Origin: an uncultured Verrucomicrobiota bacterium
GTDB taxonomy: Bacteria; Verrucomicrobiota; Kiritimatiellia; Kiritimatiellales; Tichowtungiaceae
Length of the DNA: 64,000 nt
Direction: 5' to 3'
Assembly (NCBI GenBank): GCA_903826865.1
Contig: CAIKGD010000027.1
Span: forward strand, 1 to 64,000
Positions 5,245 through 43,277 of the stretch are shown here, one piece after another. Position numbers and translations under genes: made by a program. The notes under the pieces are model-generated. The model worked only from the letters and a program-made list of their open reading frames with translations. It ran no database searches and was not told the origin of the DNA. The number at the start of each line of letters is the position of its first letter. Position 1 is the stretch's first letter.

Positions 5245-6591
5245 ATGGCAACGGAAGTTTTAATGCCCCGTCAGGGGCAGTCAGTCGAATCCTGCATCAT
5301 CATCGGCTGGAAAGTGAAAGAGGGCGATACGGTCGCACAGGGTCAGGCGCTGTGCGAAGTCGAAACCGACAAAGCCACCTTTGAAGTCGAAGCGCCCGCC
5401 GCCGGCACCGTCCTTGGCGTTTTTTATCCGGCCGGTTCTGACGTGCCGGTTCTCAAAGTGATCGCCGCAATCGGCAAGCCGGGAGAAGATGTTTCCTTGC
5501 TTCGGCCTGCGGCTGAAGCTGCGGAAACGAAACCTGAAACCGGAAATGTGAAACCGGAAGCAAAAGCGGCGGCTCCGGCAGTGACCGTTTCAAATTTCAA
5601 GGTTCAGGATTCAGGTTTGTCATCCGGGGTTTCTCCCCGCGCCCGCAAGCTGGCGGCATCCAAAGGCATTGATGCTTCAGCGCTCGCCGGCTCCGGGCCG
5701 GACGGCCGTGTAATTGAGCGTGACGTTAAAGCCGCTCTGGAAGGCAAAGCCCCGCTTTCTCCCGCCGCCAAAGCAAAACTGGCTTCGATTCCAAACCTTG
5801 GAAGCGGGATCGGCGGACGCATACTCGCCGCCGATATTCAGACGCTTTCCGCGACTCCTGCACCGGCACCTGCTCCGGCCGTTCCGGCTGTTTCGTACAG
5901 CGTCGAACAGATGGGCGCGCTGAAAGAAATCGCGGTCAAGGGCGTGCGCAAACTTGTCGCCGGCCGGATGCTTTCTTCGATGCAGACGACCGCGCAGCTC
6001 ACGATGCACACCTCCGCCGATGCGCGGACGATTCTGGCCGCCCGCAAAAAATTCAAAGATTCCGCTGACAAAGGCGGCATCACCATCAACGATCTGGTGC
6101 TTTACGCTGTTGCGCAGACCCTTGTGAATTTCCCCGACCTCAACGCGTACTGGCTGGGCGAAAAGATTGTGCAGTTTGAAAACGTCCACCTCGGCTTTGC
6201 AGTTGATACGCCGCGCGGCCTGATGGTGCCGGTCATCCGCTTTGCCAATAAACTTTCGCTCGAAGAGATGGCCGCTGAGTCCAAACGGCTCGGCGCAGCC
6301 TGTATTAAAGGAACGGTTGATCCCGACGCGCTCAAAGGCGGCACGTTCACTGTTACCAACCTCGGTGCGGCGGGCATTGAAATGTTTACGCCCGTGCTCA
6401 ACGCGCCGGAAGTCGGCATTCTCGGCATCTGCGCGATTCTGCCGAAACCGGTGATGAAGAAAGATGGCGGTGTTGAGTTTATTCCGCATATCGGACTCTC
6501 GATTACCTTTAACCACTGCGCAACGGACGGCGCACCTGCCGGACGTTTCCTCGCCGCAATGCGTCAAAAGCTCGCAGATCTCGCTTTTTGA
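5245..6591 (+). CDS. pdhC: Dihydrolipoamide acyltransferase (E2) of a 2-oxoacid dehydrogenase
   Basis: A 448-residue E2. Domains in order: lipoyl domain (1-85, with K43 in [10 protein letters not shown]); an Ala/Pro/Glu linker; an E3/E1-binding domain (about 130-170, SPRARKLAASKGIDA) with a second, partial copy (LSPAAKAKLASIPNLGSGIGG) after it; and a CAT-like catalytic core from ~225 with H424-x3-D428-G429. It transfers the acyl group from lipoamide to CoA. The linker DNA contains two heptad arrays and one TTCCAA-ACC-TTGGAA palindrome. The lipoyl domain is nearly identical to that on the E3 gene downstream. Confidence 0.9.
   Translation: MATEVLMPRQGQSVESCIIIGWKVKEGDTVAQGQALCEVETDKATFEVEAPAAGTVLGVFYPAGSDVPVLKVIAAIGKPGEDVSLLRPAAEAAETKPETGNVKPEAKAAAPAVTVSNFKVQDSGLSSGVSPRARKLAASKGIDASALAGSGPDGRVIERDVKAALEGKAPLSPAAKAKLASIPNLGSGIGGRILAADIQTLSATPAPAPAPAVPAVSYSVEQMGALKEIAVKGVRKLVAGRMLSSMQTTAQLTMHTSADARTILAARKKFKDSADKGGITINDLVLYAVAQTLVNFPDLNAYWLGEKIVQFENVHLGFAVDTPRGLMVPVIRFANKLSLEEMAAESKRLGAACIKGTVDPDALKGGTFTVTNLGAAGIEMFTPVLNAPEVGILGICAILPKPVMKKDGGVEFIPHIGLSITFNHCATDGAPAGRFLAAMRQKLADLAF
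5529..5561. repeat. Heptad array in E2 linker
   Basis: GAA recurs with exact 7-base spacing at 5529, 5536, 5543, 5550 and 5557. It encodes part of the flexible Glu/Lys/Pro/Thr linker after the lipoyl domain. Confidence 0.6.
5589..5623. repeat. Second heptad array in E2 linker
   Basis: TTC recurs at 5589, 5596, 5603 and 5610 with exact 7-base spacing, encoding SNFKVQDSG between the lipoyl and subunit-binding domains. Confidence 0.6.
5789..5803. repeat. TTCCAA-N3-TTGGAA palindrome in E2 gene
   Basis: A perfect 6+3+6 palindrome (spacer ACC) inside the coding sequence, in the partial second subunit-binding repeat. One of five exact copies in the window. Confidence 0.75.
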
Positions 6592-6597
6592 ACCGCA

Positions 6598-6632
6598 GAA
6601 TAACGAACAAGGAATATTGAATGTCGAAGGAA
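6598..6632. repeat. Heptad array spanning the start of the S23-type gene
   Basis: Five GAA-phased heptads: GAATAAC, GAACAAG, GAATATT, GAATGTC, GAAGGAA. The start codon of the following gene (ATG at 6621) and its AAGGAA ribosome binding site lie within the array. Confidence 0.75.
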
Positions 6633-6995
6633 GTTAAATTTGATCTTGAAGAGCGGCTGATTGATTTTGCGGCTCGTTGCATCAAGGTTGCTGAATCTTT
6701 GCCGAATACACGGGCAGGTCAACATTTGTCCGATCAGCTAACGCGTAGCGGGACTTCGCCCGCGCTGAATTATGGAGAGGCGCAAGGGGCGGAATCCCGC
6801 AAAGATTTTGTTCACAAAATGAAGGTTTCTCTGAAAGAGCTTCGGGAGACGCTGATTTGTCTAAAAATTATTATTCGCGCCGAGCTTTTGGCTGAGGAAA
6901 AGCTGAAACCATTGATTAATGGAGCCAATGAGCTGATTTCAATTTTTGTAATCAGTATTAAAACAGCAAAGCAGAATGAGGAGAGGGCTTCGTAA
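6621..6995 (+). CDS. Four-helix bundle protein, S23/IVP family
   Basis: A 124-residue helical protein of the four-helix bundle family first known from intervening sequences in 23S rRNA genes. The hallmarks are LTRSGTSPALNYGEAQGAESRKDFVHKMK and the KELRETLICLKII helix. Molecular function is unknown. It lies between E2 and E3 in the same direction, where it has no obvious metabolic role. It is bracketed by heptad arrays that are inverted with respect to each other (GAA-phased on the left, TTC-phased on the right), which suggests an inserted unit. A paralogous family member is at 51601-51963. Confidence 0.85.
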   Translation: MSKEVKFDLEERLIDFAARCIKVAESLPNTRAGQHLSDQLTRSGTSPALNYGEAQGAESRKDFVHKMKVSLKELRETLICLKIIIRAELLAEEKLKPLINGANELISIFVISIKTAKQNEERAS

Positions 6996-7030
6996 TTCGG
7001 AGTTCTTTGTTCGATATTCGATATTTTTTC
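6989..7030. repeat. Heptad array spanning the stop of the S23-type gene
   Basis: TTC-phased heptads TTCGTAA, TTCGGAG, TTCTTTG, TTCGATA, TTCGATA, TTTTTTC. The TAA stop of the upstream gene (6993-6995) is inside the first unit. Confidence 0.75.
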
Positions 7031-7049
7031 GACTGGAAGGAGAAAACAA

Positions 7050-8780
7050 ATGGCTACAGAAGTTTTAATGCCGCGGCAGGGACAATCGGTCGAGTCCTGC
7101 ATTATCGTCGGCTGGAAAGTGAAAGCGGGCGAACCGGTCACCGAAGGCCAGACGCTTTGCGATGTCGAGACCGATAAAGCCACGTTTGAAGTTCCGGCTC
7201 CCGCTGCGGGCACTGTGCTTGAAATTTTTTATCCGGCCGGTGCTGACGTACCCGTTCTGAAAGTGATCGCCGTGATCGGCAAGCCGGGAGAAGACATATC
7301 GGCGATGCGTCCTTCGGACGCTGCGCCGAAACCGCAGAATATCGAACAGAAAACTCCGAATAATGAAGTGAAGAAAAAAGAGCCGAAAAACGCTCCTTCT
7401 GCTGTTCGGAGTTCAATATTCAATATTCAAGATTCCGCCGATTATGATGTGATCATAATCGGAGCCGGGCCCGGCGGCTATGTTATGGCTGAACGGGCTG
7501 GACACCTCGGTAAAAAAGTTCTGCTGATCGAAAAAGAACATCTCGGCGGCGTCTGCCTGAACTGCGGCTGCATTCCCACCAAAACGCTGCTCAATTCCGC
7601 CAAACACTATGTCCACGCCAAGGAAGCGTCCGAATTCGGCGTGACCACCGGCGAGGTCAACTTTGATCTTTCGAAAGCGATGGCCTGGAAGACCGAAGTA
7701 ATCGAAACACTGCGCGGCGGCATCGGATTTATGATGAAGAAGAACAAGGTGACCGTGGTGAACGGCACCGCGAAACTGCTCGGACCGCGCAAAGTGCAGG
7801 TCGGCGGCAAAATTTATGAAGGCACCAATGTGGTCATTGCCACCGGGTCATCACCGTTTGTTCCTCCGATTCCCGGCGCGAAACAGCCGCATGTGATGAC
7901 CAGCACGGAGATTCTGAATATTGATACGATGCCCAAAACACTGACCGTGATCGGCGGCGGCGTGATCGGCGTGGAGTTCGCCAGCTTCTTCAGCAGTTTC
8001 GGCGTCAAAGTGGATGTGATCGAAATGCTCGACGAAATTATTCCCTTCATGGACCGCGGGCAGGCCAAAGAATTCCGCAAGGCGCTCAAAGGCAAAGTGG
8101 AATTCAATCTCGGTTGCAAAGTCACGGCGATTGACGGCCATCAGGTGAAATACACAACCAAAGCCGGCGAAGAAAAATCCATCCAGGCGGACATCGTGCT
8201 GATGTCGGTCGGCCGCGTTCCGAACCTTGGAAACATGGGTTTCGAAGAAGCCCGTCTCGATTTCGACCGGCGCGGCATCAAGGTGGATGAGCAGATGCGC
8301 ACCAACCTGCCGGATGTCTATGCGATCGGCGACGTCACCGGACTTTCGCAATTGGCGCACTCCGCCACGCGCATGGGCGAAGTGGCGCTCAATACGATTT
8401 GCGGACAGCCCGACCGCTTCCGCCGCAACGCGATTCCGTGGGCGGTTTACTCCATGCCTGAAGTGGCCGGCTGCGGGCTGACCGAAGAGCAGGCGCAGGC
8501 CGCCGGTCATAAAGTCAAAGCGGCTTCGCTGCCGATGACCATGAGCGGACGCTTCCTCGCCGAAAACGGCAAGCGCGGCCCCGGTTCTGTCAAAGTCATC
8601 AAAGATGCCGACACCGACGTACTGCTCGGTGTTCACATGGTCGGCGCGGGCTGCTCCGAAATGATTTACGGCGCCGCCGTGATGATTGAAGCCGAACTGC
8701 GGGTGAAGGACATCCGCGAAATTGTTTTCCCGCATCCGACCGTCGGAGAAGTAATCCGCGACACCATGTTTCAACTTTAA
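7050..8780 (+). CDS. lpdA: Dihydrolipoamide dehydrogenase (E3) with N-terminal lipoyl domain
   Basis: A 576-residue fusion. Residues 1-85 are a lipoyl domain (K43), then a linker with two heptad arrays, then a full E3 from ~131: FAD motif [11 protein letters not shown], redox disulfide C169-x4-C174 in [15 protein letters not shown]-binding [11 protein letters not shown], and a C-terminal His-Glu pair in [10 protein letters not shown]3 reoxidises dihydrolipoamide with NAD+. An extra Cys lies between the two redox cysteines where Val is usual. A good GGAGA box precedes the ATG. It sits between E2 and E1. Confidence 0.94.
7337..7371. repeat. Heptad array in E3 linker (first)
   Basis: GAA-phased words at 7337, 7344, 7358 and 7365, encoding the [13 protein letters not shown] part of the linker between lipoyl and E3 domains. 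Confidence 0.55.
7405..7439. repeat. Heptad array in E3 linker (second)
   Basis: TTC recurs at 7405, 7412, 7419, 7426 and 7433, encoding [12 protein letters not shown] just before the FAD-binding domain. The words resemble, in inverted form, those of the first linker array. Confidence 0.65.
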
Positions 8781-8797
8781 ACAACAGGAGAATCCCC

Positions 8798-11251
<2,454 letters not shown>

Positions 11252-12636: not shown

Positions 12637-13593
12637 TTAAATCGAATCTACGATCTCTTTTACTTTGCGGTCGTAGTTTTCTTTGTCGATCAGACCTTGA
12701 TCTAAAAGTTGTTTGACCTGTTTTAAGCGTTCGTCCGCACCCTGCTTGTTCTGTGCGGCTGGCCTTGCGGGTGTTCTGGCAACTGGCCTTGGATTTCCAA
12801 GCTTCGTCCCGAGCGTTCCGCCTTGCGCTTTGAATAATGCTTGGACTTCGTCGGCAGACAAAGCGCGGTTAAACATCATCACGTCATCCATCATGCCATA
12901 GAAGGAGGCATCATATTTACTCAAAGGATCATCTCCTTGATTGGAACGGTTTCCGCCGATGGTCAAATCGCAGGAGGTGGCACCGATATCTCCCTTCCAG
13001 TAGGCTCTATTGACAAGCCACCCATCCACGTAAAGCCTTGCGTCTGCACCATCAAAAGTGCCGACGATATGACGCCACTGTCCATCTGCTATCAGAATAC
13101 GGGAATATGGAGCCGCTTTGCCCACTTCAATTCCTACTTGACCTCGCCATCTTGGCTTTCCGTTGGTGGTGTCTCCGCCCATGCTTAGAACATATCCCTT
13201 AGCGAAGTCCTTGTCGAAAATACGCCGCCATGCCGCGTCTTTGTATGAGGTCTTAATCCACGCTGATAGGGTTAAAACGGGCGGGTTGATTGAATCGTTG
13301 TTCGGTACGGTAATGTAACTGTTGGTTGGGCCAAAGCTGGCGCAGCCGCCTTGATGCCCGTCTTTTATCCACTCGACACTGACGGGGTGGCCATTGTTAC
13401 CTTGACCGCTTTCGTCGGCGATTTCCGTAGTACCCGGCTCGCTATCAAAACTGTAGTAGAGAACAAGGCCTTTGCGGAGATCCTCCGGTAGCGCGGAAGC
13501 TTTTGCTGAGAGATCAGCCCCAAGCGCGCTAGTGGCGAAGGAAGCGATACCAATGGTTGCGATGACAAGGATGCGTTTTGTTTTCATTTTCAC
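12637..13593 (-). CDS. Secreted LamG-fold protein with C-terminal SHOCT domain (copy 1)
   Basis: A 318-residue product. A signal peptide (residues 1-25, cut near SALGA) is followed by a concanavalin/LamG beta-sandwich (about 45-250; GLVLYYSFD, GPTNSYITVP, LTLSAWIKTS, DGQWRHIVGTFDG, MDDVMMFNRALS) and a SHOCT-like helix pair at the end (RLKQVKQLLDQGLIDKENYD). LamG-like folds usually bind glycans or proteins; SHOCT function is unclear. It is ~75% similar to the adjacent copy upstream and shares its direction. Its GAGG ribosome binding site overlaps the TGA stop of that copy, so the two are translationally coupled. Confidence 0.82.
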   Translation of the reverse strand: MKMKTKRILVIATIGIASFATSALGADLSAKASALPEDLRKGLVLYYSFDSEPGTTEIADESGQGNNGHPVSVEWIKDGHQGGCASFGPTNSYITVPNNDSINPPVLTLSAWIKTSYKDAAWRRIFDKDFAKGYVLSMGGDTTNGKPRWRGQVGIEVGKAAPYSRILIADGQWRHIVGTFDGADARLYVDGWLVNRAYWKGDIGATSCDLTIGGNRSNQGDDPLSKYDASFYGMMDDVMMFNRALSADEVQALFKAQGGTLGTKLGNPRPVARTPARPAAQNKQGADERLKQVKQLLDQGLIDKENYDRKVKEIVDSI

Positions 13594-13594
13594 C

Positions 13595-14545
13595 TCAGAT
13601 TGAATCCACGATCTCTTTTACTTTGCGGTCGTAGTTTTCTTTGTCGATCAGACCTTGATCAAAGAGTTGTTTAACCTGTTTTAAGCGTTCGTCCGCACTC
13701 TGCTTGTTCTGTGCGGATGGCCTTGCCGGTGCTCTGGCGACTGGAACGGGTTTTCCAAGTTTTTCCCCGAGCACCCCGCCTTGCGCTTTGAATAATGCTT
13801 GGACTTCGCCATCAGACAGGGCGCGGTTAAACATCATTACATCGTCCATCCGGCCATTGAAGGAAGCGCCCACCGCGTTCAAATGCGCCACCGATCCGAA
13901 CTTGGAGCGATTTTCTCCGATAGTCAAATCGTAGGTGGTGCGCGGCACCTTTCCGAGCCAGTGACTCGTCGTAACGAGCTTTCCGTCAACATACAATTTT
14001 GCGTCCGCACCATCGCAGGTGCCGATGACATGATGCCATTGTCCATCCGTTACCTGAAAGCCGGAAGACGCCCACATTTTTCCAGCTCTCAAACACACCT
14101 GACCTTGCCATGAGCCCCCGTTTTTGTTGTCTCCGCCCATTGTTAAAGCGTAGCCATCATCATAGCCTTTATCGAAAATGCGCCGCCATGCCCCATCTTT
14201 ATATGAGGTCTTGATCCACACTGACAAGGTCAAGACGTCCGGGTTTAGCTTCGTCCTATCCGGTACGGTAATATAACTGTTGGTCATGCCGAAGTTGGCG
14301 GCTCCGCCCCGATGCCCGTCTTTTATCCACTCGACACTGACGGGGTGGCCATTGTTACCTTGACCGCTTTCGTCGGCGATTTCCATAGTACCCGGCTCGC
14401 TATCAAAACTGTAATAGAGAACAAGGCCTTTGCGGAGTTCTTCCGGCAGCGCGGAAGCTTTTGCTGAGAGCTCGGCTCCAAGCACGCTAATGGCGAAGGA
14501 AACGATTCCAATGGTTGCGATGACAAGGCCGCATTTTGGTTTCAT
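13595..14545 (-). CDS. Secreted LamG-fold protein with C-terminal SHOCT domain (copy 2)
   Basis: A 316-residue paralogue of the neighbouring gene with the same layout: signal peptide, LamG-like beta-sandwich, Pro/Ala linker (PVARAPARPSAQNK), SHOCT-like tail. Start at 14545 preceded by an AGGAA box. The two copies are nearly identical at both ends and differ mainly on the sandwich surface (around residues 130-230), as expected after tandem duplication with divergence of the binding face. The pair is antisense to the flanking PHP gene and lies between that gene and a decayed copy of its 3' end. Confidence 0.82.
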   Translation of the reverse strand: MKPKCGLVIATIGIVSFAISVLGAELSAKASALPEELRKGLVLYYSFDSEPGTMEIADESGQGNNGHPVSVEWIKDGHRGGAANFGMTNSYITVPDRTKLNPDVLTLSVWIKTSYKDGAWRRIFDKGYDDGYALTMGGDNKNGGSWQGQVCLRAGKMWASSGFQVTDGQWHHVIGTCDGADAKLYVDGKLVTTSHWLGKVPRTTYDLTIGENRSKFGSVAHLNAVGASFNGRMDDVMMFNRALSDGEVQALFKAQGGVLGEKLGKPVPVARAPARPSAQNKQSADERLKQVKQLFDQGLIDKENYDRKVKEIVDSI

Positions 14546-30442: not shown

Positions 30443-31297
30443 TTAGTTTGGCGCAACCCACCGTGCAAAAGCGCCGCTGGGCAGGGGCATGACGCCGGGT
30501 TTGCCGGTGAGGAGCATTTCACCGCAGTCGGCGGTACCGCCCAAATCCTTGAGCCATTGGGTGAGTAAATTTTTGAGAATCATCGGCGAGTATTCGGGCG
30601 TATGACAGCTCAGCAAAAGGAACGCCGGGTTTTCGGAGAGCAGGTCGCGGCAGAGGTTGAGCAGTTCAGGAAGCTGATCCTGTATTTTGAAAACCTCACC
30701 TTTTTTGCCGCGTCCGAAGGAGGGCGGGTCGAGGATGATGCCGTCGTAGCGGCGCTCGCGTTTGACTTCGCGGCGGAGAAAGCCGATGGCGTCGTCGACG
30801 ATCCAGCGGATCGGCGCATCCTGCAGTCCGTTAAGCAAGCCGTTTTCGCGCGCCCATTCGACCATCCCTTTGGAGGCGTCGAGGTGGCAGACTTCAGCGC
30901 CGCCCTGCGCGGCGGCGAGTGTCGAGCCGCCGGAGTAGGCGAAAAGGTTCAATACATTTGCGGCACCTGTCTGCGTTTTACGCTGCTGCACGGTTTCGCG
31001 GATCCATTTCCACATGACGCGCTGTTCCGGAAAAATGCCGAGGTGGCCGAAGTCGGTGGAGGAGAGTTTAAAGGTGATTCCGGCGACGGTGACTTTCCAG
31101 TTGTCGGGCAGGTTGTGGCGGTTGTGCCAGCGGTTGCCTTCTTCGCGGTCGAATCCGGCGGAGATATTCTGCCAGACCTCTTCGGTAAGCGACGGCTGCC
31201 ACGCGGCCTGTCCGGCGGGGCGCACCAGCGTTACATCGCCGAAGCGTTCCAGCTTGCGGCCGTCGCCGCTGTCGATCAGTTCATAGTCGTCGTTCAT
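30443..31297 (-). CDS. Class I SAM-dependent methyltransferase, RlmI/RlmK-like
   Basis: A 284-residue methyltransferase. Motif I is VLNLFAYSGGSTLAAAQGGAEVCHLDAS and motif IV is ILDPPSFGRGKKGEVF, the pattern of the RlmI-related family acting on 23S rRNA. The N-terminal 80 residues form a short beta-rich region rather than a full PUA domain. The target base is unknown. It heads a minus-strand run with the putative nuclease and VF530 genes. Confidence 0.82.
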   Translation of the reverse strand: MNDDYELIDSGDGRKLERFGDVTLVRPAGQAAWQPSLTEEVWQNISAGFDREEGNRWHNRHNLPDNWKVTVAGITFKLSSTDFGHLGIFPEQRVMWKWIRETVQQRKTQTGAANVLNLFAYSGGSTLAAAQGGAEVCHLDASKGMVEWARENGLLNGLQDAPIRWIVDDAIGFLRREVKRERRYDGIILDPPSFGRGKKGEVFKIQDQLPELLNLCRDLLSENPAFLLLSCHTPEYSPMILKNLLTQWLKDLGGTADCGEMLLTGKPGVMPLPSGAFARWVAPN

Positions 31298-31304
31298 GAG
31301 CGGG

Positions 31305-31389
31305 AGTCTAAAGACCGCAGTCGAAAGTCGAAAGTCTAAAAGTCGAAAGTCCGGGATTCCTAAAGCCTAAGGCCTAAAGCCTGATTCCT
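31305..31389. repeat. Heptad arrays (AGTC and CCT phases)
   Basis: AGTC recurs at 31305, 31319, 31326, 31333, 31341 and 31348 (one 8-base step), then CCT at 31359, 31366, 31373, 31380 and 31387. The second part (CCTAAAG, CCTAAGG, CCTAAAG) runs into the stop codon of the SET-domain gene. Confidence 0.8.
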
Positions 31390-31972
31390 ATCCCCGGTGC
31401 AGGCAGTTGAGAATCGAATCCATCAGCGTAGGCTTTTCAGCGATCTGACAGGTTTTTTCCCACTGCTCGTCCGAAAGCATGTCGCGCAGCGGCTGTTCGA
31501 CTGAGGTTACCTGTTTGAAAGCGCCTTCGAGTTTTTTGTCCCACTGCTTGTAGTGGCGGGCGAGGTCGTCGGGATAAACAATTTTCCGCTCGGTGCCTTC
31601 GTCGCAGGCCTGAAAGGGCTCCAGAATATTGAGCGAACCGTAATCGTTGGTGAGTTCTTCGCCTTCACGGATGTCGCGCACGGCCAGTTCAAAGTTGTAG
31701 GCGGTGGTGATGCAGTTGGGATTGAAGCTGTGATTCATGAAACGCGTGTTGTCCCAGCAGAAGACATATTCGCCGTGCCGGTTGCGGTAGGAATATTTGT
31801 AGAGCGTTTCGCGGCAGCGGTCAGGGAGCGCGGTAACTTCTTGCAGGCTGAAGAAGCGGTCGAGCGGATCCATCACCCAGGTGACGGTGCCTTTGGGAAT
31901 GTCGCGGGTGGCGACAATGCCGCAACCGATTTCTTCACTGATCCATCTGACTTCTGTATCGGGGTGCAGCAT
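31388..31972 (-). CDS. SET-domain protein
   Basis: A 194-residue protein with a SET lysine-methyltransferase fold: GCGIVATRDIPKGT at the start, the NHSFNPNC motif and the C-terminal GEELTNDYGS with the catalytic-type tyrosine. SAM-dependent methylation of a protein lysine is the expected activity. Bacterial targets are mostly unknown. It starts four bases after the stop of the large E1/KAS III fusion gene and is surely in its transcript, so a protein of that system is a reasonable candidate substrate. Its stop lies in a heptad array. Confidence 0.82.
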   Translation of the reverse strand: MLHPDTEVRWISEEIGCGIVATRDIPKGTVTWVMDPLDRFFSLQEVTALPDRCRETLYKYSYRNRHGEYVFCWDNTRFMNHSFNPNCITTAYNFELAVRDIREGEELTNDYGSLNILEPFQACDEGTERKIVYPDDLARHYKQWDKKLEGAFKQVTSVEQPLRDMLSDEQWEKTCQIAEKPTLMDSILNCLHRG

Positions 31973-31976
31973 ACGG

Positions 31977-34900
31977 TTACCGTTTCTCGATGACGGCTGC
32001 GCCGAAGGTGAAGCCGCCGCCGAATGCGGTGAGCCCGACGAGCGCGCCTGGTTTCATTTCCGGCATCAGCTCGACCAGCGCGAACGGTATCGTGTTTGAC
32101 GAGGTGTTGGCGTATTTACGGATGTGGTTGAACATTTTTTCCGGCGGACAGTGGATGGTTTTGCGGATGGCTTCAATGATCCGCTCGTTGGCCTGGTGCG
32201 GCACGATCATATCCAGCGCGTCCACCGCAATACCGCGCATCGCACAGGCTTCGGCGAGCATGTCGATCATCTTGCGCACGGCGAGTTTGAAGACGGTGAT
32301 GCCTTCCATTTCGATCACCTGACCGCTGCCCATATGGGGAACGTAGAGCACTTTCTGATCTACGCCGGTGGCGGAAAGGACAGGGCGGGTCACCAGCACG
32401 TTAACGTTGCCGCCGCGCGATTCGCAGGAAAGCAGCGAAGCGGTTGCGGCATCGCCGAAGAGCGCGAGCGTCTTCTGGTCGTTATGGTTGATCATCGGCG
32501 ACAGCGTTTCGGCGGTGATGACGATGACTTTCTTGGACGGATCATCGCGCAGAATATCGCAGGCGTTCTGCAGCGCGTACATATAGCCGGAACAGGCGGC
32601 GCTGATGTCGTGCGCCTGCATTTGGACTTCGCCCTTGGCGGGGCTGAGCTCCTTGAGGACGCGGCAGGCGAGCGACGGCGTCATCGCCAGCGGCGTGCCG
32701 GTCGAACAAACGATGGCATCGATATCAGACAACGCCAGCTTTTCCATTTCAAGCAGATCACGCACCGCTTTGACGGCCAGCGTTTCGACGTTTTCGTCGC
32801 CGGTGATCCAGTAGCGGTTTTCGCAGCCGGTACGTGAACGGATGGCTTCGGAATCCCATTCGCCGTGTCCGGAAAGCAGTTCTTCATTCGTGATATGCCG
32901 CGAACCGAGCACTGTGGTGATGGAGGAAATTAAAACCTCCCGATGTTGCTCGGGGCAGACGGTTTTTGCTTTCGGAGCTGCGGCAGCCTGTTTCTCGAGA
33001 ACCGGCGTGCCGGGATCGTCTTTGGTGACCGGTTTTCTGATGAGATTGGTTTCGTCGGTGGCGATGCGTGCAAGCGGCGTGCCGACATCCGCGGAATCAC
33101 CTTCGGCGAGGAAGAGTTCTTCGATAGTGCCGCTGACCGGCGCGGAAATTTCCATCGTGGCTTTATCGGCTTCGACGGAGGCAAGCAGTTCGCCCGCTTC
33201 GACAGCCTGTCCGGCCTTAACGTGCAGTTCGACCACTTTAATGGTTTTGTCGGACGGGCTGGAGCCGATGGCGTTGACGGTGACAAAGCCTTCGGCTTCT
33301 TCAACCGGCTTCCGCCAGGTCAGCGAATAGCCGAGCAGTTCGGCGGCTTTGCCGAGTACGGTGCGGAAGGACGGCAGCACTTCAATTTGTGTTTCAAAAA
33401 GATAGGGAATATAGGTGTCGTGCCGCGTCACGCGCGCCATCTGTACCGGCACGTTCGCTTTTTCGGCGACCGTCGCCAGCACTTCACCGCCGAATCCGCA
33501 GGTATGATTGTCTTCATGGACGACGAGCAGACGGCCGGTTTTCTGTGCGGAAGCGATGACGGCTTCCTGATCCCACGGAACGAGTGAGCGCAGGTCAATG
33601 ACTTCGACGGATGCACCGGCGGTCTGGAGTGCTTCGGCGGTTTTTTCGCAAAGCGGCACCGTACTGCCCCAACTGACAATCGTCAGATCGCGGCCCGGAC
33701 GGGTGACGCGTGCCCGGCCGATCGGCACGAACTGCTTCGCCGCATCCGCCGCAGCGGTGACGGAGCGGTCGTTGATCAGATTTTTCGGGAAAAGAAATAC
33801 GGTCGGCCGTCCGGACTCAAAGGCGGCGTTAAGCAGACCGGCGGCATCCGGCGCGGTGGACGGCATAAAGACGTCGAGGCCGGGAATATGCGCAAAGGTG
33901 GCGTCGAACGTCTGTGCGTGATACGGACCGAGACCGGGGCGGTAGGCTCCGCAAATCGCCATCAGAATGACGGGGCATTCCCACTGTCCGTTGGTGCGCC
34001 ACCACATCGCGCCGAGTTCGGCGGCAATCTGGTTGAAAGCGGGCAGCATGAAGTCGGCGAACTGAATGCAGGCGACCGGTTTTTTTCCGGTGAGCGCCTG
34101 ACCGATGGCCGAGCCGACGATAGTGGCTTCGCTGAGCGGCGCATTGATGACCTGTCCGGGGAAAGCAGTGCTCAGGCCGCGTGTCAGACCGAAAACATCG
34201 CCCTTTGGATCTTCGATATCTTCGCCGTAGAGATAAACGGTTTTGTCTGCACCGAGGCGGGCGCGGAATACTTCACGCATCGCTTCGAGCATGGTGAGCG
34301 CATCGCCGGTAGTGCGCTTTTCGCTTTTCGCGTCGGTGAGTTTTGCCGGCAGCGGTTTTTTTGCGCTGAGTTCTGTTTTGGCGTTGGGCATTTTGCGGGC
34401 GGCATCGAAAGCGGCGGTGAGTTCCTGATTAATCTCGTGCTCGATTGCTTTGAGTTGTGTTTCGGGAATACCGGCGGCAATCAGCTTTTCAGCCAGAATC
34501 AGAATCGGGTCGGCTTTTTCGCGCATTTCGCGGATGTCGTCTGCCGAGCGGTAAAGAGTGTGGTCGTCGGCATTGGTATGGCTCGTCAGCCGCTCGACGT
34601 CCACGACGACGATCTGCGGGCCGCGGGTTTTCCGGATTTTGGAAACCGCCTGACCGAATACGCGATGTGTTTCGACGGCGTTGGTGCCGTCGGCGCGAAG
34701 AATCGGCAGGCCGTAAAATTCTTTGGCGTCACCGTCCGGCAGCGAGAAAAAAGTGCGGCCTTTGGTCGGAGTGGAGAGTGCATAGCGGTTGTTCTGAACA
34801 ACAAAGAGGACGGGAAGCTGTGAGCGGACGGCTTCGGCGACTGCTTCGAGAAATTCATTTTCCTGCGTACCGCCGTCGCCGATGCCGCAGTAGACGATAT

Positions 34901-35300
34901 CGCTGCTGTCCTTGATGGCCTGTGCTACACCGACGGCTTGCAGTGCATTGCTGCCGACACCGGTCGGCGCACCGAGCAGATTCAGTTTACGGTTGCAGGC
35001 GAAGCCGGGCATGTTGCGGCCCTCGGTCGGCGATCCGGTTTTCCCGAGCAGGTCGAGCAGCAAATCCTTTTGAGTGACACCGCGGGCGAACATCAGGGCG
35101 CGGTCGCGGTAGTGGCAGTGGAGCCAGTCGGTTTCTGTCAAATGGGGCGCGAGCGCCGCCATCGCCTCATGGCCGGATGAAGGGATGTAAAAGAAGGCCT
35201 CGCCGCGCTGGGCTGCGTCTTCCTGAACGGTGTCGGCCTTGCGCGACGCAAGCATGTGGCGGTAGAGGCCGAGAAAAAGATTGGTGTCTAATGGTTGCAT
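31977..35300 (-). CDS. Fused 2-oxoacid dehydrogenase E1 alpha-beta, lipoyl domain and KAS III
   Basis: A 1107-residue protein from the ATG at 35300. Residues 1-305 are E1 alpha with a canonical thiamine-diphosphate motif (GDG 141-143, 26 residues, N170-N171). Residues 330-665 are E1 beta (YGEDIEDPKGDVFG, APLSEATIVG, HEDNHTCGFG). Residues 672-748 are a lipoyl domain with K713 in EADKATMEI. Residues 789-1107 are a FabH-like ketoacyl synthase with C903, H1035 and N1065, spaced 132 and 30 apart exactly as in E. coli FabH (C112, H244, N274). There is no E2 acyltransferase domain. The likely role is converting a 2-oxoacid directly into a primed acyl chain. A SET-domain gene follows. Confidence 0.88.
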   Translation of the reverse strand: MQPLDTNLFLGLYRHMLASRKADTVQEDAAQRGEAFFYIPSSGHEAMAALAPHLTETDWLHCHYRDRALMFARGVTQKDLLLDLLGKTGSPTEGRNMPGFACNRKLNLLGAPTGVGSNALQAVGVAQAIKDSSDIVYCGIGDGGTQENEFLEAVAEAVRSQLPVLFVVQNNRYALSTPTKGRTFFSLPDGDAKEFYGLPILRADGTNAVETHRVFGQAVSKIRKTRGPQIVVVDVERLTSHTNADDHTLYRSADDIREMREKADPILILAEKLIAAGIPETQLKAIEHEINQELTAAFDAARKMPNAKTELSAKKPLPAKLTDAKSEKRTTGDALTMLEAMREVFRARLGADKTVYLYGEDIEDPKGDVFGLTRGLSTAFPGQVINAPLSEATIVGSAIGQALTGKKPVACIQFADFMLPAFNQIAAELGAMWWRTNGQWECPVILMAICGAYRPGLGPYHAQTFDATFAHIPGLDVFMPSTAPDAAGLLNAAFESGRPTVFLFPKNLINDRSVTAAADAAKQFVPIGRARVTRPGRDLTIVSWGSTVPLCEKTAEALQTAGASVEVIDLRSLVPWDQEAVIASAQKTGRLLVVHEDNHTCGFGGEVLATVAEKANVPVQMARVTRHDTYIPYLFETQIEVLPSFRTVLGKAAELLGYSLTWRKPVEEAEGFVTVNAIGSSPSDKTIKVVELHVKAGQAVEAGELLASVEADKATMEISAPVSGTIEELFLAEGDSADVGTPLARIATDETNLIRKPVTKDDPGTPVLEKQAAAAPKAKTVCPEQHREVLISSITTVLGSRHITNEELLSGHGEWDSEAIRSRTGCENRYWITGDENVETLAVKAVRDLLEMEKLALSDIDAIVCSTGTPLAMTPSLACRVLKELSPAKGEVQMQAHDISAACSGYMYALQNACDILRDDPSKKVIVITAETLSPMINHNDQKTLALFGDAATASLLSCESRGGNVNVLVTRPVLSATGVDQKVLYVPHMGSGQVIEMEGITVFKLAVRKMIDMLAEACAMRGIAVDALDMIVPHQANERIIEAIRKTIHCPPEKMFNHIRKYANTSSNTIPFALVELMPEMKPGALVGLTAFGGGFTFGAAVIEKR

Positions 35301-39072: not shown

Positions 39073-39113
39073 AAACAGGGTAAAACCGGATGGTTTTTTA
39101 CAGGGGATTTTTT

Positions 39114-41369
39114 ATGGGCAAAGCCAACGTCAATTTAATCTGCGATATTGCGGAACTATCATCGCTCTTTGAGAAGAGCAGCAGTCTTGATGATTTTCTG
39201 CAGTCTGCCGTCAGCGTGGTGGCCTGGCATATGCAGGCGGCCGTCTGTTCGATTTATATTTATGACGACAAAGAGCGGATGCTTACGCTGCGCGCCACGC
39301 AGGGGCTGAGTCCGTCCGCCGTTGGAAAAGTTCAGCTTCGTCTGGGGCAGGGACTGACCGGTCTGGCACTTAAAGAACTGCGTGCGATCCGCGAAGGCCG
39401 CGGCGGCCTCAGTCCAAAATTCCAGCCGGTTCCCGGCATCAACGAGGAAAAATATCAGGCGTTTCTGGCGGTGCCGATCCGGCGCGGGCTGACACGCGTC
39501 GGCGTGCTGACCGTGCAGGATGTTCAGCCTGATTATTTTGATGAAAAAGACGAGCAGGCGCTTAAAGCGATTGCCGCCCAGCTCGCCACGGTGATTGAAA
39601 ATGCCAATCTGCTGCTGACGCTGCACCGGCAGGAAGAGCCGGCGAAGCCGTCCGGTCTGCCGGCTCCGAAGATGATCAAAGGCCGTCCGGCCAGCGGAGG
39701 CGTGGCGCAGGGGCGGGCGGCTGTTATTATTTCGGGACGCGGCGGGAGTTTTCAGCTTCCGGACGGTATTTCCCGGAATCTGACGGTGCAGGATTTCGAC
39801 CGTGCGCTGCAACAGACGGAGCAACAGCTTAAGGATCTCCAGCGCCGGGCCGATGAAGAGCTTTCCGATGTGGCGCAGCTGATTTTCAGCGCCCATCTGC
39901 TGATTCTGGCGGATGATGAGTTTTCCGGCGAGATCCGGCGGCGTATTGAGGCGGGCACTCCTCCGGCGGAAGCGCTGGTGACGCTGGTAAACCGGTATAT
40001 TGAAATTTTTTCAGCCAGCTCCAATCTGCGGTTGCAGGAGAAGGTGCACGATCTGAAGGATCTCGGCCACCGTCTGCTGGAGAATCTGGCCGGCGGAGAC
40101 CGGAAGCTCGGCGATTACAGCGGACAGATTATTGTGGCCGATATGCTGCTGCCGTCGGATATTCTCAAGCTGGCGACGGAGAATGCCGAAGGGTTTATTG
40201 TGCAGGGCGGGGTGACTTCGCATAATGCGATCATCTGCCGTTCACTGCAGAAGCCGATGGTGATGATTGATCCGCAGCAGCTGGAGCTTCTCTGTACTAC
40301 GTGTGAACTGCTGATAGACGGCGATCAGGGCGCGATTTATATCGAACCGTCGGAAGAGGTGCTTAAGGAGTATGCCGAAAACCGCCGCGCGGCCGCCGAA
40401 CTGGAGAACGCTCCGCCGGTCAAGGCGGAAACGCGCACGGCCGACGGCACGCGCATTCAGCTTTTTGCCAACATCAATCTGCTCAGCGATCTGAAGCTGG
40501 CTCTGAGTTTCCGCACCGAAGGCGTTGGACTTTACCGCAGTGAATTTCCGTTCATCATCCGCAACGCCTTTCCATCGGAAGAGGAGCAGTATCAGGTATA
40601 CAGCCGGATTGTGGAAACAATGGGCGGACGCGAGGTGACCTTCCGCACGCTGGATATTGGCGGGGACAAAGTGCTTTCCTACCAGAACGAAGCCGAGGAG
40701 GCCAACCCGTTTCTCGGTCTGCGTGCCATCCGTTTTTCTCTGCTGCACAAAGATATTTTTTCGGAGCAGCTGCGCGCTTTCCTGCGCGCAGGTTCCGGCG
40801 GCAATACCCGCATCATGTTTCCGCTGATCGCTTCGCTCGACGAGTTTATCGAGGCGCGCGATGTAGTGTACGATTGTATGAAGGAGCTTGATGCGCGCGG
40901 TGTGCCATACAACCGTAACACCAGGATCGGCATTATGGTGGAACTGCCTTCGGCAGTGGAGCTGATTGAAGACCTCGCCCGCGAGGTTGATTTTATGTCT
41001 ATCGGCACCAACGATCTGATCCAGTACATGCTGGCGGTTGACCGGACCAACGAAATGGTTTCGAAACTTTATCTGTCGCACCACCCGGCGATTCTGCGTG
41101 CGATTGAGCGGGTGGTTTCGGCGGCGAACAGTTATCGCAAGGATGTTTCGATCTGCGGTGACATTGCTATGGATCCGAAAATGATTCCTTTTCTGCTGGG
41201 GGTCGGCATTACCAAACTGAGTCTGTCGCCGCGGCGGGTATATGAAATTCAGCGGACGATCGAACAGGTCAGTATGGAGAAAGCGGTCTACACAGCCCGC
41301 CGGATGCTCACCGCCAGTCGTATCAGCGAAGTTGAAGACATAATAAAAACGCACAAAGTTGTGTCGTAA
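39114..41369 (+). CDS. ptsP: PEP-protein phosphotransferase EI-Ntr with GAF domain
   Basis: A 751-residue enzyme I paralogue from the ATG at 39114, preceded by GGGGA. The N-terminal GAF domain (about 20-165; SIYIYDDKERMLTLRATQGL, FLAVPIRRG) is followed by the PtsI core. The phosphorylated His is H370 in GGVTSHNAIICRS, PEP-binding motifs include GLYRSEF and GTNDLIQYMLAVDR, and the catalytic Cys is C681 in VSICGDIAMDP. EI-Ntr starts the nitrogen PTS relay to NPr and EIIA-Ntr in response to glutamine and 2-oxoglutarate. It lies directly upstream of the second amt-glnK pair, consistent with nitrogen control. Confidence 0.92.
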   Translation: MGKANVNLICDIAELSSLFEKSSSLDDFLQSAVSVVAWHMQAAVCSIYIYDDKERMLTLRATQGLSPSAVGKVQLRLGQGLTGLALKELRAIREGRGGLSPKFQPVPGINEEKYQAFLAVPIRRGLTRVGVLTVQDVQPDYFDEKDEQALKAIAAQLATVIENANLLLTLHRQEEPAKPSGLPAPKMIKGRPASGGVAQGRAAVIISGRGGSFQLPDGISRNLTVQDFDRALQQTEQQLKDLQRRADEELSDVAQLIFSAHLLILADDEFSGEIRRRIEAGTPPAEALVTLVNRYIEIFSASSNLRLQEKVHDLKDLGHRLLENLAGGDRKLGDYSGQIIVADMLLPSDILKLATENAEGFIVQGGVTSHNAIICRSLQKPMVMIDPQQLELLCTTCELLIDGDQGAIYIEPSEEVLKEYAENRRAAAELENAPPVKAETRTADGTRIQLFANINLLSDLKLALSFRTEGVGLYRSEFPFIIRNAFPSEEEQYQVYSRIVETMGGREVTFRTLDIGGDKVLSYQNEAEEANPFLGLRAIRFSLLHKDIFSEQLRAFLRAGSGGNTRIMFPLIASLDEFIEARDVVYDCMKELDARGVPYNRNTRIGIMVELPSAVELIEDLAREVDFMSIGTNDLIQYMLAVDRTNEMVSKLYLSHHPAILRAIERVVSAANSYRKDVSICGDIAMDPKMIPFLLGVGITKLSLSPRRVYEIQRTIEQVSMEKAVYTARRMLTASRISEVEDIIKTHKVVS

Positions 41370-41546
41370 TAACATCTATCTACATAATTGTATTAGATTT
41401 TAATCATGTACCATCAATGTATTTATTTCAATAAATACATTACATATTCAAGCACAATTACTTATAAATTATTTTACCTTCAGTTAATTATTCAGGCATA
41501 TAGTGTGCTTATTAACATGCCAAAATACAAACAGGAGGTATGTTGT
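41370..41546. promoter_or_regulatory. AT-rich promoter region of second amt, with candidate sigma-54 site
   Basis: Markedly AT-rich compared with its surroundings. At 41495-41508 it has GG-N10-GC in the context GGCATATAGTGTGCTT, close to the -24/-12 consensus and to the site before the first amt. Predicted start near 41520, 27 bases before the amt start. An imperfect palindrome (TGTATTTATTTCAATAAATACA, 41418-41439) lies upstream and could be an activator site. Confidence 0.55.
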
Positions 41547-42917
41547 ATGAGAAAGAGAAATATGTTTGGCAGAGCCGGTCTGCTCTGCGGTTTGTTCGGC
41601 ATCTTAATGATGCTTGCGGGAAATGGGTACAGTCAGGAAGCGGCGGCTGGAGCGGTTGCTGCTGCTCCGGCAGCAACAATCAGCGCAGGGGATACGGCTT
41701 GGGTGCTGATGAGTTCCGCCCTGGTGCTGCTGATGACTCCGGGATTGGCGTTCTTTTACGGCGGATTGGTCCGCAAAAAGAACATCCTTTCGATCCTGAT
41801 GCAGTGCTTCGCGGTTATCTGTCTTGTCACCCTGCAATGGGTGCTGTTCGGCTACAGTCTGGCCTTCGGCCCGGATGTAAAGGGCTGGATCGGCAACTTG
41901 AGCTGGGCTTTCCTGAACGGGGTCGGTGCGGATCCGTTTACCGGATATGCCGCAACGATTCCTCATTCGGTGTTCATGATCTTTCAGGCCATGTTTGCCG
42001 TTATTACACCGGCGCTGATCCTTGGGGCCTTCGCGGAACGCATGAAGTTTTCAGCTTTTTGCGTATTCATTCTGCTGTGGGCCACGCTGGTGTATGATCC
42101 GGTCGCCCACTGGGTCTGGGGCCTGGGCGGTTTTCTTTCCCGCTTCGATGCGGCCGGCAATGCTGTGCCCGGAGCGCTGGACTTTGCCGGCGGTACGGTT
42201 GTGCATATCAACGCCGGTATAGCCGCACTGGCCGCAGCGCTGGTTATGGGCAAACGTGTCGGATCGGTCTCGCCGCCGCATAATCTTCCGTTCGCCGTTC
42301 TGGGTGCGGGACTGCTGTGGTTCGGCTGGTTCGGTTTCAATGCCGGCAGTGCACTGGCCGCCAACGGACTGGCAGCTAATGCGTTTGTAGCTACTCATAT
42401 AGCGACAGCAGTTGCCGGACTGACCTGGGCAATCTGCGACTGGCTGTATCACAAGAGAGCCACCACCCTTGGAATGATCACAGGCGCGGTTGCAGGTCTT
42501 GTGGCGATTACACCGGCTTGCGGTTTTGTATCGCCGATGAGCGCCATCTGGATCGGTGCGGGTGCCGCCATCATCTGCTTTATCGCGGTGACCTTTATCA
42601 AGGCTGTGTTTAAATATGACGACACGCTGGATGCCTTCGGCGTACACGGCGTGGGCGGCATCTGGGGCGCGCTGGCAACCGGTATCTGGGCCGAGAAATC
42701 GGTCGGCGGATTTGACGGTCTGCTGCACGGCAATCCCGGACAGTTCCTCATCCAGATCAAAGCAGTTCTGGTCACGATAGTTTATTCGTTCGTGGTGTCG
42801 TTTGTACTGCTGAAGCTGGTGGATAAAATCATCGGTCTGCGTGTTTCTGAACACGAAGAACGGGTGGGGCTGGATCTGACTCAGCACAAAGAAGCCGGTT
42901 ACACGACCATCGACTAA
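41547..42917 (+). CDS. amt: Ammonium transporter, Amt family (second copy)
   Basis: A 456-residue Amt channel from the ATG at 41547, 8 bases after AGGAGG. A signal peptide (ending GYSQEAA) and about 11 helices are seen. Pore features are LAFFYGGLVRKKN, DFAGGTVVHINAG (first pore His), WFGFNAGSA, and DAFGVHGVGGIWGAL (second pore His). It is clearly diverged from the Amt at 22742: here the canonical DFAGGTVVHI and long C-terminus resemble classical AmtB. It is followed 18 bases later by its own glnK. Confidence 0.95.
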   Translation: MRKRNMFGRAGLLCGLFGILMMLAGNGYSQEAAAGAVAAAPAATISAGDTAWVLMSSALVLLMTPGLAFFYGGLVRKKNILSILMQCFAVICLVTLQWVLFGYSLAFGPDVKGWIGNLSWAFLNGVGADPFTGYAATIPHSVFMIFQAMFAVITPALILGAFAERMKFSAFCVFILLWATLVYDPVAHWVWGLGGFLSRFDAAGNAVPGALDFAGGTVVHINAGIAALAAALVMGKRVGSVSPPHNLPFAVLGAGLLWFGWFGFNAGSALAANGLAANAFVATHIATAVAGLTWAICDWLYHKRATTLGMITGAVAGLVAITPACGFVSPMSAIWIGAGAAIICFIAVTFIKAVFKYDDTLDAFGVHGVGGIWGALATGIWAEKSVGGFDGLLHGNPGQFLIQIKAVLVTIVYSFVVSFVLLKLVDKIIGLRVSEHEERVGLDLTQHKEAGYTTID

Positions 42918-42935
42918 TCGAAAGGAATATACACC

Positions 42936-43277
42936 ATGAAATACATAGTTGCTGTTATTCAACCCGACCGTCTGGACCCGGTTCTGGATCTGCTCGAAGA
43001 GAAAGAGATTCATCTGGTAACCGTTTCCAACGTAATGGGACGGGGACGTCAGAAAGGCATCGCGGCGGTTTACCGCAGTCACAAGGAGGCGGGCAGCCTT
43101 CTGAAAAAAGTGAAGCTGGAAATCGTCGTCAATGATGACTTTGTGAAGCCGACGGTCGAGGCCATTACGAAAGGCGCACGGACCGGACAGATCGGAGACG
43201 GTAAGATATTCGTCCTGAATCTGGAAGAGTGTCTGCGTATACGAACCGGCGAAACCGGATCGGTTGCCATCGGCTGA
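42936..43277 (+). CDS. glnK: Nitrogen regulatory PII protein (second copy)
   Basis: A 113-residue PII protein with T-loop GRGRQKGIAAVYRSHKE, retaining the tyrosine, and the signatures [12 protein letters not shown] and IRTGETG. The T-loop differs strongly from that of the PII at 24114, which suggests specificity for the neighbouring channel. An AAAGGAA box precedes the ATG. It ends at a terminator shared with the convergent rdgB gene. Confidence 0.95.
   Translation: MKYIVAVIQPDRLDPVLDLLEEKEIHLVTVSNVMGRGRQKGIAAVYRSHKEAGSLLKKVKLEIVVNDDFVKPTVEAITKGARTGQIGDGKIFVLNLEECLRIRTGETGSVAIG

Follow-up and report, generated by a model that had tools for sequence, protein, structure and literature searches.

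Can a single polypeptide carry a 2-oxoacid all the way to the first beta-ketoacyl-ACP of a fatty acid? The general understanding is that a branched-chain fatty acid begins with a three-part dehydrogenase that makes an acyl-CoA, which is then used by FabH. The gene considered here raises the question of whether two of these elements, E2 and CoA, can be skipped. It lies in a window of 64,000 nucleotides (the whole stretch of DNA analysed, positions 1 to 64,000 of contig CAIKGD010000027.1 from an uncultured Verrucomicrobiota bacterium of the order Kiritimatiellales). A sequence-only reading had suggested that its lipoyl arm delivers an acyl group straight to a KAS III cysteine, in the making of a special lipid. 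The gene and its parts lie as follows.

31977..35300, minus strand: whole fusion gene, 1107 amino acids, with ATG at 35300, the stop codon ending at 31977 and the frame intact
34377..35264, minus strand: E1alpha (PF00676), residues 13-308, with GDG141-143..N171 and catalytic His241
33393..34298, minus strand: E1beta (PF02779/PF02780), residues 335-636, with Glu391 and His461
33063..33242, minus strand: lipoyl domain (PF00364), residues 687-746, with the lipoyl Lys713 in VEADKA
32940..33062, minus strand: flexible linker, residues 747-787, with a conserved KPxTxExPGTPxLxRR at about 756-771 (P766 in 72/74)
31980..32939, minus strand: KAS III domain (PF08545/PF08541), residues 788-1107, with Cys903, His1035 and Asn1065

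A Pfam search of the full chain bears out the proposed order of E1alpha, E1beta, lipoyl and KAS III domains within one 1107-residue protein, with matches to E1_dh (residues 13-308, E-value 1.3e-43), Transket_pyr (335-509), Transketolase_C (528-636), Biotin_lipoyl (687-746), ACP_syn_III (898-961) and ACP_syn_III_C (1021-1105). The same search returned no PF00198, in agreement with the claim that the chain lacks an E2 catalytic domain, and no PF02817, the E3-binding or peripheral subunit-binding domain. The residues named beforehand (GDG 141-143, NN 170-171, K713, C903, H1035 and N1065) are numbered correctly, and the KAS triad does have the FabH spacing claimed for it, its intervals of 132 and 30 being those of E. 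coli FabH C112/H244/N274. The KAS III domain scores 264.6 bits with profile NF006829 (cut-off 249) and 225.4 bits with TIGR00747 fabH (cut-off 292.1). An AlphaFold2 model built from an alignment of 74 natural fusions has a mean pLDDT of 89.7, with one low-confidence stretch in the linker between the lipoyl and KAS III domains (pLDDT below 50 at residues 774-784). Foldseek matches this model to E1 beta subunits of the branched-chain and pyruvate types and to FabH; the best PDB match of the E1 part is the branched-chain 2-oxoacid dehydrogenase of Thermus thermophilus (1um9_B, E1beta, TMt 0.93), and FabH 9ka6 matches with a TMt of 0.90.

The fusion is neither a chance join nor an artefact, because a survey of genomes found 87 distinct full-length copies across several phyla, a result that rules out an error of assembly or reading frame. 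Copies occur in Kiritimatiellota, Lentisphaerae, Planctomycetes, Spirochaetes, Sumerlaeota and one cyanobacterial MAG, and those outside Kiritimatiellota belong mostly to uncultured lineages. Among the genomes listed, 41 of the 43 from the host order carry the fusion, as do 60 of 346 from the host class. Beyond the home order its distribution is patchy: it is found in another family of the host phylum, and the 199 genomes sampled from the planctomycete phylum include 2 with the full fusion. The cyanobacterial-labelled contig, from the Xenococcus sp. MO_188.B8 MAG, encodes a fusion of 46% identity and reflects either transfer or a mis-binned contig. A horizontal plasmid element was ruled out, with no plasmid record covering 80% of the query. 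Matches on Streptomyces plasmids were considered as unfused precursors and rejected, as they place E1alpha/beta beside an NRPS with no adjacent KAS III.

Residues expected to act in each domain are conserved throughout this family (residue invariance was counted in a 74-row alignment of fusions, KAS-domain features in 87 sequences). G141, G143, N171 and His241 of E1alpha, Glu391 and His461 of E1beta, and the lipoyl Lys713 are each present in 74/74 fusions; at position 142, in the TPP motif, 67/74 have Asp and 7/74 have Glu. The triad Cys903/His1035/Asn1065 is likewise found in 74/74 aligned fusions and in 87/87 fused domains. Patristic distances of the E1 and KAS domains co-vary (r = 0.85), and the two domains have, judging by these comparisons, evolved together. 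In the domain trees the fused E1 and the fused KAS are each monophyletic, with modest support (0.49 and 0.78, respectively).

The closest relatives of this chassis end differently. Single-chain E1alpha-E1beta-lipoyl-E2 proteins occur in other classes of the host phylum and in some Planctomycetota, where they measure about 1120-1190 amino acids, and they share the domain order of the fusion with about 34-43% identity over the E1-lipoyl part. Their C-terminal domain is an E2 acyltransferase, whereas here it is KAS III, which therefore sits exactly at the place of E2. In the E1 tree, the fusions ending in KAS form a group with the E2 fusions of planctomycetes (support 1.0). The two kinds of protein thus have a common chassis and differ in acyl acceptor, CoA via E2 in the one and, in the reading that we favour, the KAS III cysteine in the other.

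We propose, with a probability of roughly 0.6, that the fusion serves fatty-acid synthesis as a self-contained starter-unit enzyme, taking 2-oxoisovalerate through isobutyryl-lipoyl and KAS III to a beta-ketoacyl-ACP. Its first step is well supported by family membership and conserved residues: the branched-chain-type fused E1alpha/beta would decarboxylate the 2-oxoacid via TPP and reductively acylate the lipoyl group on K713, in the same chain or within a dimer. The lipoyl arm would then swing to the KAS III domain and place the acyl group straight onto Cys903, so that neither E2 nor acyl-CoA would be needed. Condensation of this acyl group with malonyl-ACP would give the first beta-ketoacyl-ACP, as the intact Cys-His-Asn triad and the retained ACP-side residues suggest, and the dihydrolipoyl group would be reoxidised by a free E3 encoded elsewhere. 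Of the earlier suggestion, direct delivery from lipoyl to KAS thus fits a chain that has no E2 and in which Lys713 and the KAS triad are invariant; the transfer itself is our inference.

Residues of the KAS III domain that face the substrate bear on this second step (numbering of FabH). W32 and R151 of FabH sandwich the adenine of CoA (PMC4606726). Both residues are missing from 87/87 fused KAS domains. Stand-alone FabHs encoded in these or related genomes, by contrast, have W32 in 40/40 and R151 in 37/40. The loss of the pair supports delivery of the acyl group from lipoyl rather than from CoA. The ACP-side R249 is present in 87/87 fused domains, and the pantetheine-side R36, G209 and N247 are largely retained. 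We read the loss of W32/R151 as an altered CoA site at which CoA use may persist. Distant thiolase-fold enzymes bind CoA without this pair.

The host genome has a single E2 (one PF00198), which lies within the window about 20 kb from the fusion, in a separate operon.

5245-11251, plus strand: three-gene operon of E2, E3 and E1, the E2 with lipoyl and E3-binding domains

The dihydrolipoyl dehydrogenase of this operon has its own N-terminal lipoyl domain, and its E1 is an 817-amino-acid alpha/beta-fused protein. The genome also encodes an LplA-like lipoate ligase and one separate canonical FabH; 2 kb downstream of the latter lies an ACP gene. A bypass of E2 and CoA, as first suggested, is consistent with the placement of the sole E2 in another operon and with the lost adenine clamp; the direct hand-over that it presupposes is argued from these features. 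The host E2 could still contribute in trans, as could free isobutyryl-CoA. This opens a different account, which we consider unlikely, in which the reaction is channelled but CoA-dependent: a PDH-type E2 or another acyltransferase acting in trans would make acyl-CoA, the KAS III domain would work as a normal FabH and the fusion would merely keep the enzymes together. The score above the NF006829 cut-off for FabH, the retained pantetheine-side residues and the presence of E2 and E3 in the genome favour such an arrangement. Against it stand the loss of the adenine clamp in every fused domain, a chain that has no domain for binding E3 or E2, the position of KAS III at the place of E2 in the sister proteins, and a sole E2 that is encoded in one operon with E1 and E3 partners.

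Gene neighbourhood was set aside as a functional clue, the neighbours being clade-specific and without a link to a pathway. Across the family they include a GAF/PEP-utilising protein, an ammonium transporter, a penicillin-binding protein, RNase E/G, aconitase and a BMC shell protein; 26 loci have the PtsP-like gene close to the fusion, and 15 have the ammonium transporter there. In the window, a GAF and PEP-utilising (PtsP-like) protein at 39090-43277 (plus strand) adjoins an ammonium transporter and a GlnK-like protein. On the other side, a gene for a SET-domain protein (194 amino acids; 31388-31972, minus strand) starts 5 bases past the stop of the fusion and is followed by a SAM methyltransferase gene (30443-31297), so that co-transcription with the fusion is possible; these two neighbours are not conserved beside other fusions. 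Two tandem Laminin_G_3 domain proteins are encoded at 12637-14545 (minus strand).

The starter of even-numbered iso fatty acids is isobutyryl, which derives from 2-oxoisovalerate. Among cultured Kiritimatiellota, with profiles covering Pontiella, Kiritimatiella and Tichowtungia, the major fatty acids are C18:0, i-C12:0, i-C14:0, i-C16:0 and i-C18:0, and odd-iso and anteiso acids are not listed among them (PMC7356697; PMC10880615). Kiritimatiella glycovorans has 42% i-C14:0. We favour the 2-oxoisovalerate route because i-C12/14/16/18:0 together with C18:0 is the signature of an isobutyryl starter, and by inference from the lipids of these relatives the most likely substrate of the Kiritimatiellota fusion is 2-oxoisovalerate, from valine. 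The 'special' or aryl lipid product first envisaged finds no support here: simple even-numbered iso fatty acids occur in the lipids of cultured relatives, so that it is more economical to suppose that isobutyryl serves as a starter of ordinary membrane lipids. F87 of FabH is replaced by Thr in 86/87 fused KAS domains, a change reported to relax the acetyl preference and linked to larger acyl groups (PMC3734052). The separate canonical FabH, which retains F87 and the CoA clamp, would start straight C18:0 chains from acetyl-CoA, and a pair of starters, with FabH beginning C18:0 and the fusion beginning the iso-even acids, accounts for the lipid profile, though it is not proven by it.

The direct route could also serve another 2-oxoacid, whether pyruvate, 2-oxobutyrate, an aryl acid or a longer one, perhaps depending on the lineage; the iso-even acids of Kiritimatiellota would then be made by a different enzyme, for instance a ferredoxin-dependent 2-oxoacid oxidoreductase working with FabH. 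The host genome does encode PFOR-type proteins, and Planctomycetes and Spirochaetes likewise have the fusion. Cultured Pirellulaceae are not known for iso-even acids. We nevertheless think this improbable, as the fusion E1 is nearest to a branched-chain dehydrogenase and the stand-alone FabH has the residues expected for acetyl-CoA. More doubtful still is that the KAS III domain acts as an acyltransferase only, from lipoyl to an acyl carrier protein and with no condensation, a role suggested for the discrete KAS III in tetrahydroisoquinoline clusters: an acyl-loading role has been proposed for the dnacin KAS III (DinQ, a NapE homologue) encoded beside a two-component transketolase (PMC7570522), but the condensing triad is intact in all fused domains and the contig of the window has no PF00550 carrier-protein match, the ACPs of the host lying on contigs C12, C22 and C42. 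On C42 (34245-55010), three small carrier-protein genes perhaps belong to an aryl-polyene or similar cluster.

Returning to the starter-unit enzyme, we hold it about an even chance that the fusion represents a widespread, undescribed initiation route, from 2-oxoacid to beta-ketoacyl-ACP on one polypeptide without E2 or acyl-CoA, that explains the even-iso lipids of Kiritimatiellota. A literature search of incomplete coverage found no earlier description of a single chain joining E1, lipoyl and KAS III, nor of primary fatty-acid synthesis begun in this way. Should E2 and CoA indeed be skipped, primary metabolism would have a second logic for initiating a lipid chain, the chemotaxonomic signature of Kiritimatiellota would have a gene behind it, and engineered hosts could be given a compact part for iso fatty acid production.

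The nearest precedents in logic are discrete proteins of secondary metabolism, from the naphthyridinomycin, pristinamycin, pepteridine and dnacin systems. For the first three it has been proposed that a carrier protein is primed from a lipoyl enzyme instead of from CoA (PMC5384830), and KAS III accompanies a two-component transketolase in the dnacin and naphthyridinomycin clusters (PMC7570522). NapB/NapC/NapD/NapE-type glycolyl loading (naphthyridinomycin, dnacin, scleric acid) and pepteridine priming use a TPP/lipoyl enzyme thought to acylate a carrier and not CoA; some clusters also have a KAS III and some keep an E2-like domain. They differ from the fusion in employing discrete proteins, a sugar-phosphate or other donor and a dedicated carrier protein, toward an NRPS product. 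The dedicated ACP gene of Nap/Qnc-type systems has no counterpart (PF00550) on the contig of the fusion. Branched-chain 2-oxoacid dehydrogenase E1 (T. thermophilus 1um9, Pseudomonas putida 1qs0, human 1dtw) shares with the fusion the E1alpha/E1beta folds, TPP, the catalytic His/Glu residues and a lipoyl acceptor, whereas the fusion holds alpha, beta and lipoyl parts in one chain, dispenses with the E2 catalytic and subunit-binding domains and ends in KAS III. With E. coli FabH (1hn9) the KAS III domain has in common the fold, the spacing of the Cys-His-Asn triad and the ACP-side Arg249; unlike FabH, it has lost W32/R151, has Thr in place of F87 and is joined to its own acyl-generating enzyme.
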